From Flavobacterium aquiphilum (GTDB taxonomy: Bacteria; Bacteroidota; Bacteroidia; Flavobacteriales; Flavobacteriaceae): a stretch of 64,000 bases of DNA. Positions 25,536-29,418 of this stretch are shown here, piece by piece (the stretch's first letter is position 1; the number at the start of each line of letters is the position of its first letter). The stretch is taken from the NCBI RefSeq assembly GCF_027111335.1, contig NZ_CP114288.1, positions 4,990,801-5,054,800 on the forward strand. The letters are read 5' to 3'. A program made the position numbers and the translations under genes. The notes beneath the pieces are model-generated. The model searched no databases and was not told where the DNA came from. It was given only the letters and a program-made list of their open reading frames with translations.

Positions 25536-26423
25536 CTACTTAGATTTTATTTTCTTTGCTAAAAGTACTTTCCATGCCGAAAGTACATCATTGTCCAAAA
25601 GATATTTTTTGGCTTCCAAGTGCTGTTTTTCAAGGTCATCTGAGCTCAAAACAGCCTTTACCGAAAAATTTTGGTCTACAAATATACTAACTTCCTCTTT
25701 AGTAGGCAAGGATTCAATGTTCCCTAACATCCCTAAATCGTTCCCATCAAAGACCGAACTGCTCTTTACAAAATCAGGAATAGCATCTACTCCAATCCCA
25801 AGAGTTGTAAGCGGTTTTGGCACCTCAAAAAGTCCTTGGTTGGATCTGGAATACCAATTACCGCCCATTCTGGAAACCAAATCAATCTTATGCTGATCGA
25901 TGGCTCCATTTTCATTAAGAACTGCTTCATTGATATGGATACGTAATACTTCGCAAAGAATTAAATTTCCGGCGCCGCCCTCGGTTCCCAAAGCAATTAT
26001 CTGCGTCACTTTGCACTCAAACTGCACGGGCGATTCTTTTACCCTGTATGGTTTTACTACTTCTGATGGAATTGGTGTAAATCCGGATTTTAGAAACTCA
26101 TCAACTCCTTCAGCATACTCTGTGCTGGCCAAAGAAGTCTGCTGCACCATATCATAATTCACAACGTTGATAACAACTTCAGAATTGGCCTCGGCATTGA
26201 TTAAAGTGTGTTTAACCGTGTTATCTCTCACACGCCTTGCCGGTGAAAAAATCAATATCGGCGGATTAGAACTGAAAACATTGAAAAAACTAAAGGGCGA
26301 CAAATTTGGTACACCATTTTTCCCAATAGTACTCGCAAAAGCAATAGGCCGTGGCCCGACAGCACTTTGCAAATATCCTTGCAGTTTTACAGTATCAATG
26401 CTTTTTGGATCGACGGTAATCAT
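25536..26423 (-). CDS. Flavin reductase family protein (flavoredoxin-like)
   Basis: 295 residues. The N-terminal split-barrel FMN-binding domain has SAVGPRPIAFASTIGKNGVP, NLSPFSFFNVFSSNPPIL and the phosphate-contacting RRVRDNTVKHTL. The C-terminal third is an extension without a known motif. Such proteins bind FMN and use NAD(P)H or accept electrons. The physiological partner is unknown. Confidence 0.9.
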   Translation of the reverse strand: MITVDPKSIDTVKLQGYLQSAVGPRPIAFASTIGKNGVPNLSPFSFFNVFSSNPPILIFSPARRVRDNTVKHTLINAEANSEVVINVVNYDMVQQTSLASTEYAEGVDEFLKSGFTPIPSEVVKPYRVKESPVQFECKVTQIIALGTEGGAGNLILCEVLRIHINEAVLNENGAIDQHKIDLVSRMGGNWYSRSNQGLFEVPKPLTTLGIGVDAIPDFVKSSSVFDGNDLGMLGNIESLPTKEEVSIFVDQNFSVKAVLSSDDLEKQHLEAKKYLLDNDVLSAWKVLLAKKIKSK

Positions 26424-26583
26424 AGGTTTTTTATTTGGACAAAAATAGCAAAATAGCGTTTAGATTATCGATTATCCAAACAAATTAAATTTACAAAATC
26501 ATTGCAAATACAAAATTAATTTTCAATTAAGTCAATTGGTCGAATCTAGTAAAGCAATTGTTGTATAATGTGTTTCTTGTATT

Positions 26584-27051
26584 CTAAAATTTATATTTAT
26601 CCAATTCTATTGCTTCGTCAAAGTAACTCTTAAATTTTTCTGATAATTCTACATCCTTAAATTTTACGATTGTATATGAACTATCCCAAGCAGTTATTTC
26701 AAAAACCGCGTTTTCAACTTGAAATTCATCATTCTTCCAAACGTTATCATTTCCTTCAACGTAAGGAAAGTTTTCTTTATCAAATTTCGGATTTTCAGAT
26801 TTTTTTACGGCAGAAATCACACCCCAAATAATTTGAACATTTAATTCGATTACATTTTTAAAATTTTCGGAAGAAAGTATTGAATAATTTTCACAGAAAT
26901 CAATAGGAATTTCTTGTTTTGAAAAATTTACAAGGTCTAAATCTGACACTAACCAATTAAATTCTGATATGTCTATCCATGATGAATCTAAAAGATTATT
27001 TAAATGTGTATGACAATGCAATTTCTTCGTGCTTCTAATTATCCAATTCAA
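26584..27051 (-). CDS. Hypothetical protein
   Basis: 155 residues, no signal peptide or membrane segment, acidic (DLVNFSKQEIPIDFCENYSI, VEGNDNVWKNDEFQVENAVF). The pattern of two halves, a short beta-rich C-terminal domain and FNWLVSDLDL, recalls small cytosolic proteins of contact-dependent or defence loci, but I do not recognise the family. It lies 180 bases downstream of the TIR gene, on the same strand, and may or may not belong to that unit. Confidence 0.6.
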   Translation of the reverse strand: MNWIIRSTKKLHCHTHLNNLLDSSWIDISEFNWLVSDLDLVNFSKQEIPIDFCENYSILSSENFKNVIELNVQIIWGVISAVKKSENPKFDKENFPYVEGNDNVWKNDEFQVENAVFEITAWDSSYTIVKFKDVELSEKFKSYFDEAIELDKYKF

Positions 27052-27217
27052 AATTTATCTTTATTACGTTATGGTATTTTAACATAGCATACAAAGTGCC
27101 GCGGCTTGCGATAGTGCCGAAGCCAGCGACCTCTGTATTTTCTGTTTAAGATAAATATTTTCGTGAAGAAAAAACGTCAAGGTAACAAAACAATCTAGCC
27201 ATTATTGCAAACCGCTC

Positions 27218-27232
27218 TTATGTGTTGTGCTT
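27218..27232. repeat. Left arm of an inverted repeat flanking the TIR operon
   Basis: ttatgtgttgtgctt overlaps the stop codon of the TIR gene and is inverted, with one mismatch, at 28901-28915. Confidence 0.55.
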
Positions 27233-27635
27233 ATAAAGCGTAAGTTCTAATAGCATCAACTATACTTTCAGTATTCCATCTAACATCAATTTTTGACCTT
27301 GTGTATACTTCTGCAGAAACTCTTTGTTGTCCCCACGGTATTACACCAATAATAGGAATTCCATAACTCTTTGCGACTTCCATTTCCCAAATCATCCAAT
27401 CACTATGTGATGCGTATATTCCTGCCAATGCCAACACAACATTCGATTGAGCTATTTTATTTCTTAAAACTGATTTGATGTAGTTTGCATTTTCAGAATT
27501 GATAGGTACGTCCCTTGTGGCTTCCGTAAACTCAACATTAAAATAGCCTCTTTCATTTAAGAGCCTTTGTAATCCAAGTAAATCGCTGTGATAAGTCCAA
27601 GAGTGGCTTATAAATATTTTATAATCTTTGGCCAT
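27231..27635 (-). CDS. TIR-like (ThsB-type) protein
   Basis: 134 residues. KDYKIFISHSWTYHSDLLGL, an Rv-type core (SENANYIKSVLRNKIAQSNV), VVLALAGIYASHSDWMIWEM with a Glu in the WEME segment, and GIPIIGVIPWGQQ match the TIR-like domain of Thoeris ThsB (DUF1863/MTH538 type). In Thoeris, ThsB senses phage and makes a cyclic-ADP-ribose-type signal from NAD. It starts 3 bases after the stop of the DRHyd/TPR gene, so the two are one transcript. No ThsA-like effector is present. Function in defence is inferred. Confidence 0.88.
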   Translation of the reverse strand: MAKDYKIFISHSWTYHSDLLGLQRLLNERGYFNVEFTEATRDVPINSENANYIKSVLRNKIAQSNVVLALAGIYASHSDWMIWEMEVAKSYGIPIIGVIPWGQQRVSAEVYTRSKIDVRWNTESIVDAIRTYAL

Positions 27636-27638
27636 AAT

Positions 27639-28871
27639 TTATTTTTTCAAATTTATAATGTGCTCTCTAGATTTTTCATATGTTTCTTTTTCCCAATTCA
27701 CATTAGTGAGTTCATAAAACTTTTGTTCATATTCTTTATGAAGAGCTTGATTGTTTAAAGCTAAATAACAATTTGACAATGTAGCATAAATCCATTTTAA
27801 ATCACTTCTTTTTAGAAAATCGTCATCATTTTCCAGTTCTTCAATTATTTCAATAATTGATTCTCTAGTTTTTTGCGCCTCCAATTTATAGTAAATTTTT
27901 TCATCTGAATTTGTTGTTGTTTCTGATTTGAAATCTAGGCATAATGCATAATTTTCTCCTGTGTAATAATATGAATTAATTGTAAAGCCCTTTTTATAAT
28001 ACTTAATTGCTCTGTCTAAGTATTCAATTGTAGCATCATTTTTCAACCATAAACGTTTGTAAATTGCACCAGTTACCCCTAGAGTTTCAGGATCATTTGT
28101 TGTTCGTCCTTCAGGCTCTAATTTGTTGATAATTGTTAAAGCATCTGTTAGGGCAATATTCTCGTCTACATTCTTATTCTTATATGTACATACTGCTAAT
28201 TGCTGAATAAAATAAGTATCATCCTGAATTTTTTCAATAGCTTTTTTCCAATATTTTGCCGCTTCTTCAAAATTACTATTTAACATTTCTAATTTAGCTT
28301 GCTCCACAAGAGCAAAAATAGTTTTCTCTTTATCGGCTAAATCTTTAATAATTTGAATATATTCTTCTTCGGGTAAAATATATGGTTTTACAGATTGTAT
28401 GTGTTGGAATAATGGACTGTCAACTTCCTTGGATTTATCTACTTCTGTAATCAGTTTTGTTAATTGTGTTCTACATCTTTCTGCTTCAGTTACTCCTATG
28501 TCTTCTCCCATATGAGAATAAGTAAAAGTTTTATTGTGATTTATGTCGAAAGGAATATTTCCGTCTTTCTCTTTCATAATTATTGTCGAAAAAGGTTTTG
28601 CAGCATGCCTAACGCCGAGTTCATAAATTGCATTTGGATTAAATGTGGTAATATCTGCAATAACTAAATCTGAGTATATTAAGAGACCATACATGCTCTT
28701 GTCGATTAATCCGGATTCTAAAACTTCATCACCTCTTACACATTCAAAGCCAGCATTTTCAACGGCAGGCTTGATTATGTTTTGGTATGTTTTATCTAAA
28801 TCAAAAGTTTTCCCTAATGTTGGGTCGGTTTTTTTTCCATATCCCATTATAACAAAGCATATTTTTTTCAT
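27639..28871 (-). CDS. Nucleoside-deoxyribosyltransferase-like domain plus TPR (DUF4071/TRAFs-binding type)
   Basis: The start at 28871 (MKKICFVIMGYGKKTDPTLG) gives 410 residues; the 14 upstream residues are not conserved in style. Residues 1-150 form a DRHyd-like (nucleoside 2-deoxyribosyltransferase) domain: CFVIMGYG, SDLVIADITTFNPNAIYELG with the candidate catalytic Glu in YELGVRHA. The rest is alpha-helical TPR-like (FEEAAKYWKKAIEKIQDDTY, EYLDRAIKYYKKGF), as in the TRAFs-binding/TPR-S domain of ASK-like and bacterial conflict proteins. It forms an operon with the TIR gene downstream. Confidence 0.82.
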   Translation of the reverse strand: MKKICFVIMGYGKKTDPTLGKTFDLDKTYQNIIKPAVENAGFECVRGDEVLESGLIDKSMYGLLIYSDLVIADITTFNPNAIYELGVRHAAKPFSTIIMKEKDGNIPFDINHNKTFTYSHMGEDIGVTEAERCRTQLTKLITEVDKSKEVDSPLFQHIQSVKPYILPEEEYIQIIKDLADKEKTIFALVEQAKLEMLNSNFEEAAKYWKKAIEKIQDDTYFIQQLAVCTYKNKNVDENIALTDALTIINKLEPEGRTTNDPETLGVTGAIYKRLWLKNDATIEYLDRAIKYYKKGFTINSYYYTGENYALCLDFKSETTTNSDEKIYYKLEAQKTRESIIEIIEELENDDDFLKRSDLKWIYATLSNCYLALNNQALHKEYEQKFYELTNVNWEKETYEKSREHIINLKK

Positions 28872-28900
28872 TGAATTGAATTTTATTAAGTATAGTTGTG

Positions 28901-28915
28901 AAGCATAACACATAA
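28901..28915. repeat. Right arm of the inverted repeat flanking the TIR operon
   Basis: aagcataacacataa is the inverse of 27218-27232 with one mismatch, 30 bases upstream of the first gene of the operon. Confidence 0.55.
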
Positions 28916-28928
28916 CGTGTTTATAACC

Positions 28929-28984
28929 GAAACAAACCTTCGTTTATACACCCAAAACCAGGTAGATTGGTGAAGGTTTGTTTC
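28929..28984. promoter_or_regulatory. Perfect 13-bp inverted repeat upstream of the TIR operon
   Basis: GAAACAAACCTTC (28929-28941) and GAAGGTTTGTTTC (28972-28984) are exact complements separated by 30 bases. The position 58-113 bases before the DRHyd gene could suit an operator; a decayed element end is the other option. It lacks a good T-run, so a terminator is less likely. Confidence 0.5.
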
Positions 28985-29203
28985 TCTTTATCGTTTTTCA
29001 AATATATTGTTTTTTTCTTACAAATCATCCGATAAACACTTGATTTATTGCAAACTTTTCGTACTTACATAAGTGTGTATTTTAGTTGTTTTGCTGTATT
29101 GCAAATTTCTATTATCAACTTCTAATCTTTGGGTTACTCCAAACGCAGCGTTTCTAGTTTGAAAAAATTCAGAATTGTAAAATTTATTATGACCGCTAAT
29201 GCC

Positions 29204-29346
29204 CTAGCCCTGATAGAAGTGGAAAGCCCGGAATATCGATGGCTTACATTTTATACTGTGGAAAAGCGACCAAAGGAAGCTCTTGCCACTGTATAAAAAT
29301 GTTGCCAGCGAGATGAGGACTTGCAACGGACAGCAGGAATAGCTCC
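29204..29346 (+). ncRNA. Structured RNA-like element (Flavo-1-like, tentative)
   Basis: It starts ctagccctgatagaagtgga, has a small AAGCC/GGCTT stem, a 12-bp stem TTTATACTGTGG/CCACTGTATAAA with one mismatch, then ttgcaacggacagcaggaat and agctcc. It shares the start and end blocks with 6660-6749 but has a longer core. It lies just upstream of the sensor kinase gene. Confidence 0.5.
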
Positions 29347-29418
29347 AAATAACGATTTTTGGAACAACACAATGCTAAGTCTAATATTTCGTTATATTTA
29401 TACCACAAATTTACTTTT

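Follow-up and report, generated by a model that had tools for sequence, protein, structure and literature searches.

This study examined a two-gene operon of Flavobacterium aquiphilum that lies in a 64,000-nucleotide stretch of contig NZ_CP114288.1 (positions 4,990,801 to 5,054,800). The whole stretch is referred to as the window, and positions are relative to it. Both genes are on the minus strand. The first encodes a protein with an N-terminal DRHyd-like domain and a C-terminal TPR-S region, hereafter DRHyd-TPR-S, and the second, 3 bases downstream, encodes a ThsB-type TIR protein. The pair is real, conserved and mobile. It is probably a mobile Thoeris-like immune unit in which the TPR-S region gates a DRHyd effector. 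An earlier note on this DNA had proposed the same domains and spacing, and both open frames were recovered with profile matches from Pfam, PADLOC and PDB.

Relatives of DRHyd-TPR-S were sought in a genome scan, which yielded 129 of them. The best 80 loci were kept for the counts and carry L numbers. Open reading frames (ORFs) of 100 amino acids or more were called mechanically and compared with a TIR profile obtained from an independent search for TIR homologues. The profile matched 61/133 ORFs within 150 bp of DRHyd-TPR-S genes vs 7/1071 ORFs beyond 3 kb. When the neighbouring proteins were clustered, a TIR-cluster protein was found in the same operon run, within three genes, in 71/80 loci. 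The independent TIR profile matched 59/71 of these paired loci and Pfam ThsB_TIR matched 10 of the other 12, so at least 69 are confirmed. The TIR gene is divergent and directly beside the DRHyd-TPR-S gene in L038 and L056, and lies about 1 kb away in L043. No TIR gene was found in the operon in L010, L011, L017, L073, L080 and L062, the last of which lies at a contig end. At least one TIR-profile gene was present within 4 kb in 76/80 loci (one in 29, two in 25, three in 19 and four in 3; two to four in 47/80), a count that leans positive because the TIR-subtype profiles were built from neighbours of the same 80 loci. Pairing is near-obligate, with one to four TIR genes per DRHyd-TPR-S gene. 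The search for homologous pairs suggested by the earlier note thus returned a conserved association. That two such genes are neighbours by chance has next to no probability; the pairing counts refute it, and the pairing recurs in several phyla and on three of the four annotated plasmids examined.

The exact layout of the window, a DRHyd-TPR-S gene followed by one TIR gene and otherwise no gene of such kinds within 4 kb, was found in 11/80 loci. The two-gene form described in the earlier note is one layout among many. In L048 and L187, which share a gene order, a single DRHyd-TPR-S gene is surrounded by a SLATT gene and four TIR-profile genes. At L067:2477-3706 an in-frame stop interrupts the DRHyd-TPR-S gene after 158 residues, and the TIR gene is open.

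Tree distances of the two partners were also correlated. With 38 pairs the Pearson coefficient was 0.27 (reached by 20/2000 permutations) and the Spearman coefficient 0.39 (0/2000). In a first run on 38 pairs the best of 500 permutations gave 0.287, above the observed Pearson value of 0.27. A set of 36 pairs gave a Pearson coefficient of 0.57 and a Spearman coefficient of 0.52, values that 0/2000 permutations reached, and the value of 0.57 arises after omission of L031 and L035, whose TIR proteins are divergent.

The TIR protein matched Pfam ThsB_TIR (PF08937) with 49.8 bits (cut-off 21.2) and PADLOC ThsB model PDLC00418 with 52.9 bits. Its candidate catalytic region is S78-x-W80-x(3)-E84, and the W-x(3)-E spacing is that of SARM1. 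Residues S10, S78, W80 and E84 were invariant in 54/54 chosen sequences. The Glu was kept in 63/64 operon-neighbour TIRs belonging to the group of the window TIR. In the other TIR groups, with column correspondence read by eye, the Glu column was full in 30/30, 11/11, 5/5 and 3/3. A protein search yielded 913 TIR relatives among 921 candidates scored. Elsewhere the source genome has one TIR_2 match, in a 283-amino acid frame at G000:C1:2330400-2330753, far from the window.

No Pfam model matched the first 175 residues of the window protein at E 1 or better. A profile of the N-terminal domain was built from 26 sequences and searched against PDB, with matches taken up to E 10. All of the matched sequences (11/11) were DNPH1/Rcl, which are 2'-deoxynucleoside 5'-phosphate N-hydrolases, the best with a weak score (E 0.086), and in the four alignments shown the YELG of the profile was aligned to the YELG of DNPH1/Rcl. 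We take the Glu of this motif to be the catalytic residue in Rcl. The PADLOC 'Effector, TIR' model matched residues 24-122 of the window protein with E 6.2e-12. The N-terminal part was called DRHyd because of this match and because the PDB matches were all DNPH1/Rcl with YELG. The label, already used in the earlier note, is reasonable but depends on weak scores together with motif conservation.

Conservation of the domain was examined in the window protein and the 80 loci. D73, N78, N80, Y83-E84-L85-G86, R88-H89, F108-D109 and D151-S152-P153 were unchanged in 81/81 sequences; the patterns that had picked out the loci lie at residues 5-12 and 68-75, which makes D73 partly circular and leaves E84 and the later residues independent. 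E84 was also present in 18/18 members of a set of closer homologues. The candidate catalytic Glu residues proposed in the earlier note are accordingly conserved in both proteins. TIR, DrHyd and SLOG are placed in one clade in the excerpt of PMC9503650, a study of the NAD+-ADP-ribose (ADPr) network. Streptococcus and Staphylococcus phage proteins, including PHROG 3634, match mainly the DRHyd half among the 30/36 phage records listed. These matches cover at most 53% of the query, and those from Staphylococcus have 41% identity over residues 3-125.

Pfam identified two families in the C-terminal half, TPR-S (PF20308) with 85.1 bits (cut-off 27.6) and MAP3K_TRAF_bd with 31.1 bits (cut-off 24.1). 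Scanning of 73 sequences, drawn from the window, 66 of the 80 loci and 6 proteins, found TPR-S in 73/73 and MAP3K_TRAF_bd (E 0.01 or better) in 72/73. A profile of the TPR region matched the human ASK1 chains 5ulm and 8qgy weakly (E 0.029 and 0.073) among 21 matches, in which other, unrelated TPR proteins scored equal to or above the ASK1 chains.

A census of the phylum found TPR-S over the cut-off in 57/395 genomes, and 32 regions taken from it, some cut by contig ends, were surveyed. An ORF with a DRHyd-profile match was present in 20/32 regions. Pfam scans covered ten chosen ORFs, eight of which are TPR-S proteins without a DRHyd match. TPR-S was joined to TIR_2 in L194:5687-7045, to a caspase plus an alpha/beta hydrolase match in L193:4798-6999, which has a TIR-profile gene downstream, to a trypsin-like peptidase in L179, and to an alpha/beta hydrolase in L174, L175 and L195. 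In L064 the gene for a lipase-like TPR-S protein immediately precedes the DRHyd-TPR-S gene. Since the domains joined to TPR-S are exchangeable, TPR-S is read as the sensor and the fused domain as the effector, an arrangement that the sequences suggest. Signal-driven immune systems have sensor-effector proteins of just this build. Tandem arrangements were also seen: the DRHyd-TPR-S gene is beside a second TPR-S gene in L174, L175, L177, L179 and L180, and the other domain of the second protein is an alpha/beta hydrolase in L174 and L175 and trypsin in L179.

The operons contain further members. SLATT-profile genes were found within 4 kb in 26/80 loci, and their representative matched Pfam SLATT_1 and SLATT_3. 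A neighbour cluster from four loci has a patatin-like representative that matched a PADLOC phospholipase effector with E 5.5e-56. Both kinds of neighbour support an immune role, and DRHyd may not be the only effector.

Wider flanks were compared with control regions. The flank set was 133 of the 481 ORFs located 4-10 kb away, and 133 control ORFs came from 13 arbitrary regions in other genomes of the phylum. Flanking ORFs matched 78 PADLOC families vs 14 for the controls; the comparison counts families rather than proteins, shows 25/78 of the flank families and draws on different genomes, so it is rough and only suggestive. Among the flank matches listed are pAgo, SAVED-HNH and PD-T4-6, and also mad3 and DndA/SspA. 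The controls matched mad3, DndA/SspA, RtcR and others, which on reading look like relatives of housekeeping proteins. The defence-island setting raised in the earlier note is only suggested by the flanks of relatives, and the flanks of the window itself read as housekeeping. No model naming the whole protein was found when the window protein was scanned with PADLOC 2.0.0 and NCBIfam 20.0.

The DRHyd-TPR-S protein is widespread. A protein search identified at least 3005 relatives among 7996 candidates scored. By record title, the loci belong to Bacteroidota, Proteobacteria, Firmicutes, Planctomycetota, Lentisphaerae and further groups, with many metagenome-assembled genomes among them, in which binning may err. 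Matches were found in 73/72,556 plasmid records, 42 of which cover at least 80% of the query, all at less than 60% identity. Phage records matched in 36/50,697 cases and 0/36 cover 80% of the query, while 3/19 loci on viral contigs (L123, L124 and L126) match nearly the whole protein. A 9.8-kb Pseudomonas plasmid carries exactly the two genes plus a separate toxin-antitoxin pair. An E. coli IncP plasmid has two TIR genes and, close by on the opposite strand, a DUF4231 gene, and an Acinetobacter plasmid has three TIR genes with DRHyd-TPR-S. On a Vibrio plasmid, the gene found upstream is a larger one annotated as toll/interleukin-1 receptor.

Within the genus, DRHyd-TPR-S is rare and is not confined to this genome. 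Among 150 genomes drawn from the genus a full-length match was found in its own genome only, and nine others gave partial matches (E 1.5e-17 or weaker), while 7/80 loci are titled Flavobacterium (L002, L003, L012, L016, L022, L025 and L026). Comparison with sister genomes indicates how the pair arrived. In 14/15 sister genomes the flavin-reductase-like and histidine-kinase-like genes adjoin, with 0.1-0.3 kb between the matches. The same interval is nearly 3 kb in the window, which therefore contains a horizontally acquired insertion. In the fifteenth sister genome, L099, the reductase was not seen.

An integron-cassette origin was considered and rejected. attC-like inverted repeats were noted by eye at 27083-27230 and 28929-28984 of the window, and repeats follow the TIR stop in the window, L008, L018 and L026, but their folds were not clearly better than those of shuffled sequences (z of -0.68 for the window, -0.77 for L008, -0.72 for L018, -1.76 for L026 and -0.13 for L037). 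The stretch directly upstream of the DRHyd start gave z -3.39, yet this comes from a perfect stem of 13 bp, a simple structure. When the downstream flank of the window was searched as DNA, no second copy was found in the genome, and one motif search returned one site.

Plasmid-borne copies, including the 9.8-kb plasmid with its separate toxin-antitoxin pair, might be explained by a stress or maintenance module, a toxin-antitoxin-like stabiliser of plasmids or islands that has no part in anti-phage immunity. According to the excerpt of PMC10972558, a TPR region from this Pfam family works in ASK1 stress signalling, which would fit such a module. No small antitoxin-like partner recurs among the neighbour clusters, however; the recurrent neighbours are mainly TIR, SLATT and patatin. 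The excess of PADLOC families in the flanks, rough as that measure is, also speaks for defence, and we regard the stabiliser as quite improbable.

In the immune unit that we favour, infection would be sensed by the TIR protein, which would convert NAD+ to an ADP-ribose-type signal, a step to which the conserved TIR Glu points. The TPR-S half would bind this signal, as domain swapping suggests. Signal-bound TPR-S would then unleash the DRHyd-like half, a putative N-glycosidase with an intact Glu. This half would hydrolyse NAD+ or another nucleotide, and phage growth would be stopped by abortive infection. We infer each of these biochemical steps. The order TIR, TPR-S sensor, effector was already proposed in the earlier note and is favoured by the exchangeable domains on TPR-S. 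In a broader version, TPR-S would be the module at which ADP-ribose signals made by TIR proteins dock in general, common to bacteria and to animals by way of the ASK kinases, and DRHyd would here cut nucleotides or deoxynucleotides, as DNPH1 does, and not NAD+. We hold this version to be unlikely.

The roles could also be reversed or shared. DRHyd-TPR-S would then sense or make the signal, the TIR protein would be the killing NADase, and TPR-S would scaffold TIR proteins and not sense a small molecule. TPR repeats usually bind proteins, and one TPR-S protein (L194) is fused to TIR. In the excerpt of PMC9503650 two roles are proposed for DRHyd domains, NADase effector and ADP-ribosyl cyclase, and some TIR proteins, such as TIR-STING, deplete NAD+ directly according to the excerpt of PMC13142454. 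Some operons also contain extra effectors, SLATT and patatin. This arrangement seems doubtful to us, since up to four TIR-profile genes near one DRHyd-TPR-S gene look like several inputs with one output, and TPR-S bears interchangeable domains of the effector type.

Several observations weigh against TIR-driven gating of a DRHyd effector by TPR-S. No TIR-profile gene was found within 4 kb in 4/80 loci (L011, L062, L073 and L080), of which L062 matches residues 1-292 alone and is near the end of its stretch. At the threshold used, just 7/32 TPR-S regions gave a TIR match (L173, L178, L180, L187, L193, L194 and L198), and the inputs of TPR-S proteins may thus differ elsewhere, or their TIRs may have diverged beyond the reach of the profiles. 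The TPR-S proteins of L181 and L188 have no other effector domain recognised by Pfam. The DRHyd assignment depends on a weak profile score, the E of 0.086 given above. Killing could in truth be the work of the SLATT and patatin proteins, DRHyd-TPR-S having its place upstream of them. Finally, the neighbours of the window pair, judged by reading the ORF list, look like housekeeping genes and not like a defence island.

Coordinates of the operon and of the insertion that carries it are given in Table 1. The open frame of the DRHyd-TPR-S gene spans 27639-28913 and has an in-frame upstream start at 28913; homologues back the ATG at 28871, which gives the 410-amino acid protein. The 155-amino acid protein encoded in the insertion had no family match over a cut-off and no tblastn match in the relatives' loci compared. 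The G+C content is 29.8% for the DRHyd-TPR-S gene and 34.8% for the TIR gene, against 34.7% for the whole window.

Table 1. Positions of the two genes, their domains and the surrounding insertion in the window.
Feature	Positions	Strand	Remarks
ThsB-type TIR protein	27231..27635	minus	134 aa; open frame, PF08937, PADLOC ThsB PDLC00418
DRHyd-like/TPR-S protein	27639..28871	minus	410 aa; open frame, Pfam, homologue-backed start
N-terminal DRHyd-like domain, about residues 1-155	28407..28871	minus	conservation and profile aligned to DNPH1/Rcl; predicted
C-terminal TPR-S region, about residues 180-410	27642..28334	minus	Pfam TPR-S stretch 200-312
Gap between the two genes, 3 bases	27636..27638	minus	consistent with one transcript
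Insertion of about 3 kb between flavin-reductase-like and histidine-kinase-like genes	26424..29415	none	sister-genome comparison
Flavin-reductase-like gene	25536-26423		flank of insertion; label is a reading of the sequence
Histidine-kinase-like gene	from 29416		flank of insertion; label is a reading of the sequence
155-aa hypothetical protein	26584..27051	minus	inside insertion; 27% G+C

The window pair is one of thousands of relatives, and its interest lies in the candidate effector chemistry and the link to ASK. If the favoured mechanism is true, a nucleotide hydrolase gated by TPR-S is a further widespread output of TIR signalling, present on plasmids and in records titled as Bacteroidota, Proteobacteria and Firmicutes. 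Cutting of deoxynucleotides or nucleotides by DRHyd would be a new killing chemistry for immunity based on TIR signals, and the same immune logic would extend from a two-gene cassette to a human stress kinase. The match of TPR-S to the family of the ASK regulatory region opens to test whether ASK kinases sense a molecule of the ADP-ribose type now or did so in the past. Loci with one effector and up to four TIRs offer a natural system for how different TIRs or infections converge on one effector.

Among known systems, Thoeris is the nearest. A preprint by Yirmiya et al. from 2025 on TIR signalling systems may already describe this unit. The literature searched contained no description of the exact pair of TIR and DRHyd-TPR-S, which does not show that none exists. 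A type VI Thoeris is used in the excerpt of PMC13232231, where it is apparently cited from Yirmiya et al. 2025. In Thoeris, one ThsA gene is accompanied by one ThsB gene or by several (PMC11204291, excerpt). The window pair resembles it in having a ThsB-type TIR, recognised by PF08937 and the PADLOC ThsB models, and in that a lone putative effector gene is combined with one TIR gene or more. Unlike Thoeris, the pair has no SIR2-SLOG or macro ThsA, and its second protein is DRHyd-TPR-S, which matched no ThsA model of Pfam or PADLOC. The earlier note was right that the unit lacks ThsA, and the pair is therefore Thoeris-like and not a member of Thoeris. Genome-wide, ThsA_Macro and STALD gave no match, but the controls matched nowhere either, and this negative is no proof that the genome lacks them. 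Membership of type III Thoeris was rejected, the NCBIfam ThcB4 model giving the window TIR 13.6 bits, below its cut-off of 220.

The PADLOC 'Effector, TIR' match is a point of resemblance to the TIR effectors of CBASS and Pycsar, the PADLOC 'Effector' models being those of CBASS. Unlike in those systems, no cyclase gene is present in the pair, and Pfam CAP12-PCTIR_TIR matched the N-terminal domain at no better than E 0.16, in 1/26 members. DNPH1/Rcl and the nucleoside 2-deoxyribosyltransferases share the YELG motif with its Glu, and DNPH1/Rcl made up every PDB match. The E-values are not significant alone, and the domain differs from DNPH1/Rcl in being fused to a putative TPR sensor and paired with a TIR protein.

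The TPR-S domain (PF20308) is also that of the TPR-S conflict systems reportedly predicted by Burroughs and Aravind in 2020. In that work the TPR scaffold was reportedly predicted to recognise NAD+-derived signals and to have entered the ASK signalosome. The 410-amino acid protein ends soon after the TPR region, and Pfam found no PH or kinase domain in it, unlike in ASK (MAP3K5/6/15). It resembles the central regulatory region of ASK1/MAP3K5 in its MAP3K_TRAF_bd match over the cut-off and, weakly, in the match of its TPR region to 5ulm and 8qgy.

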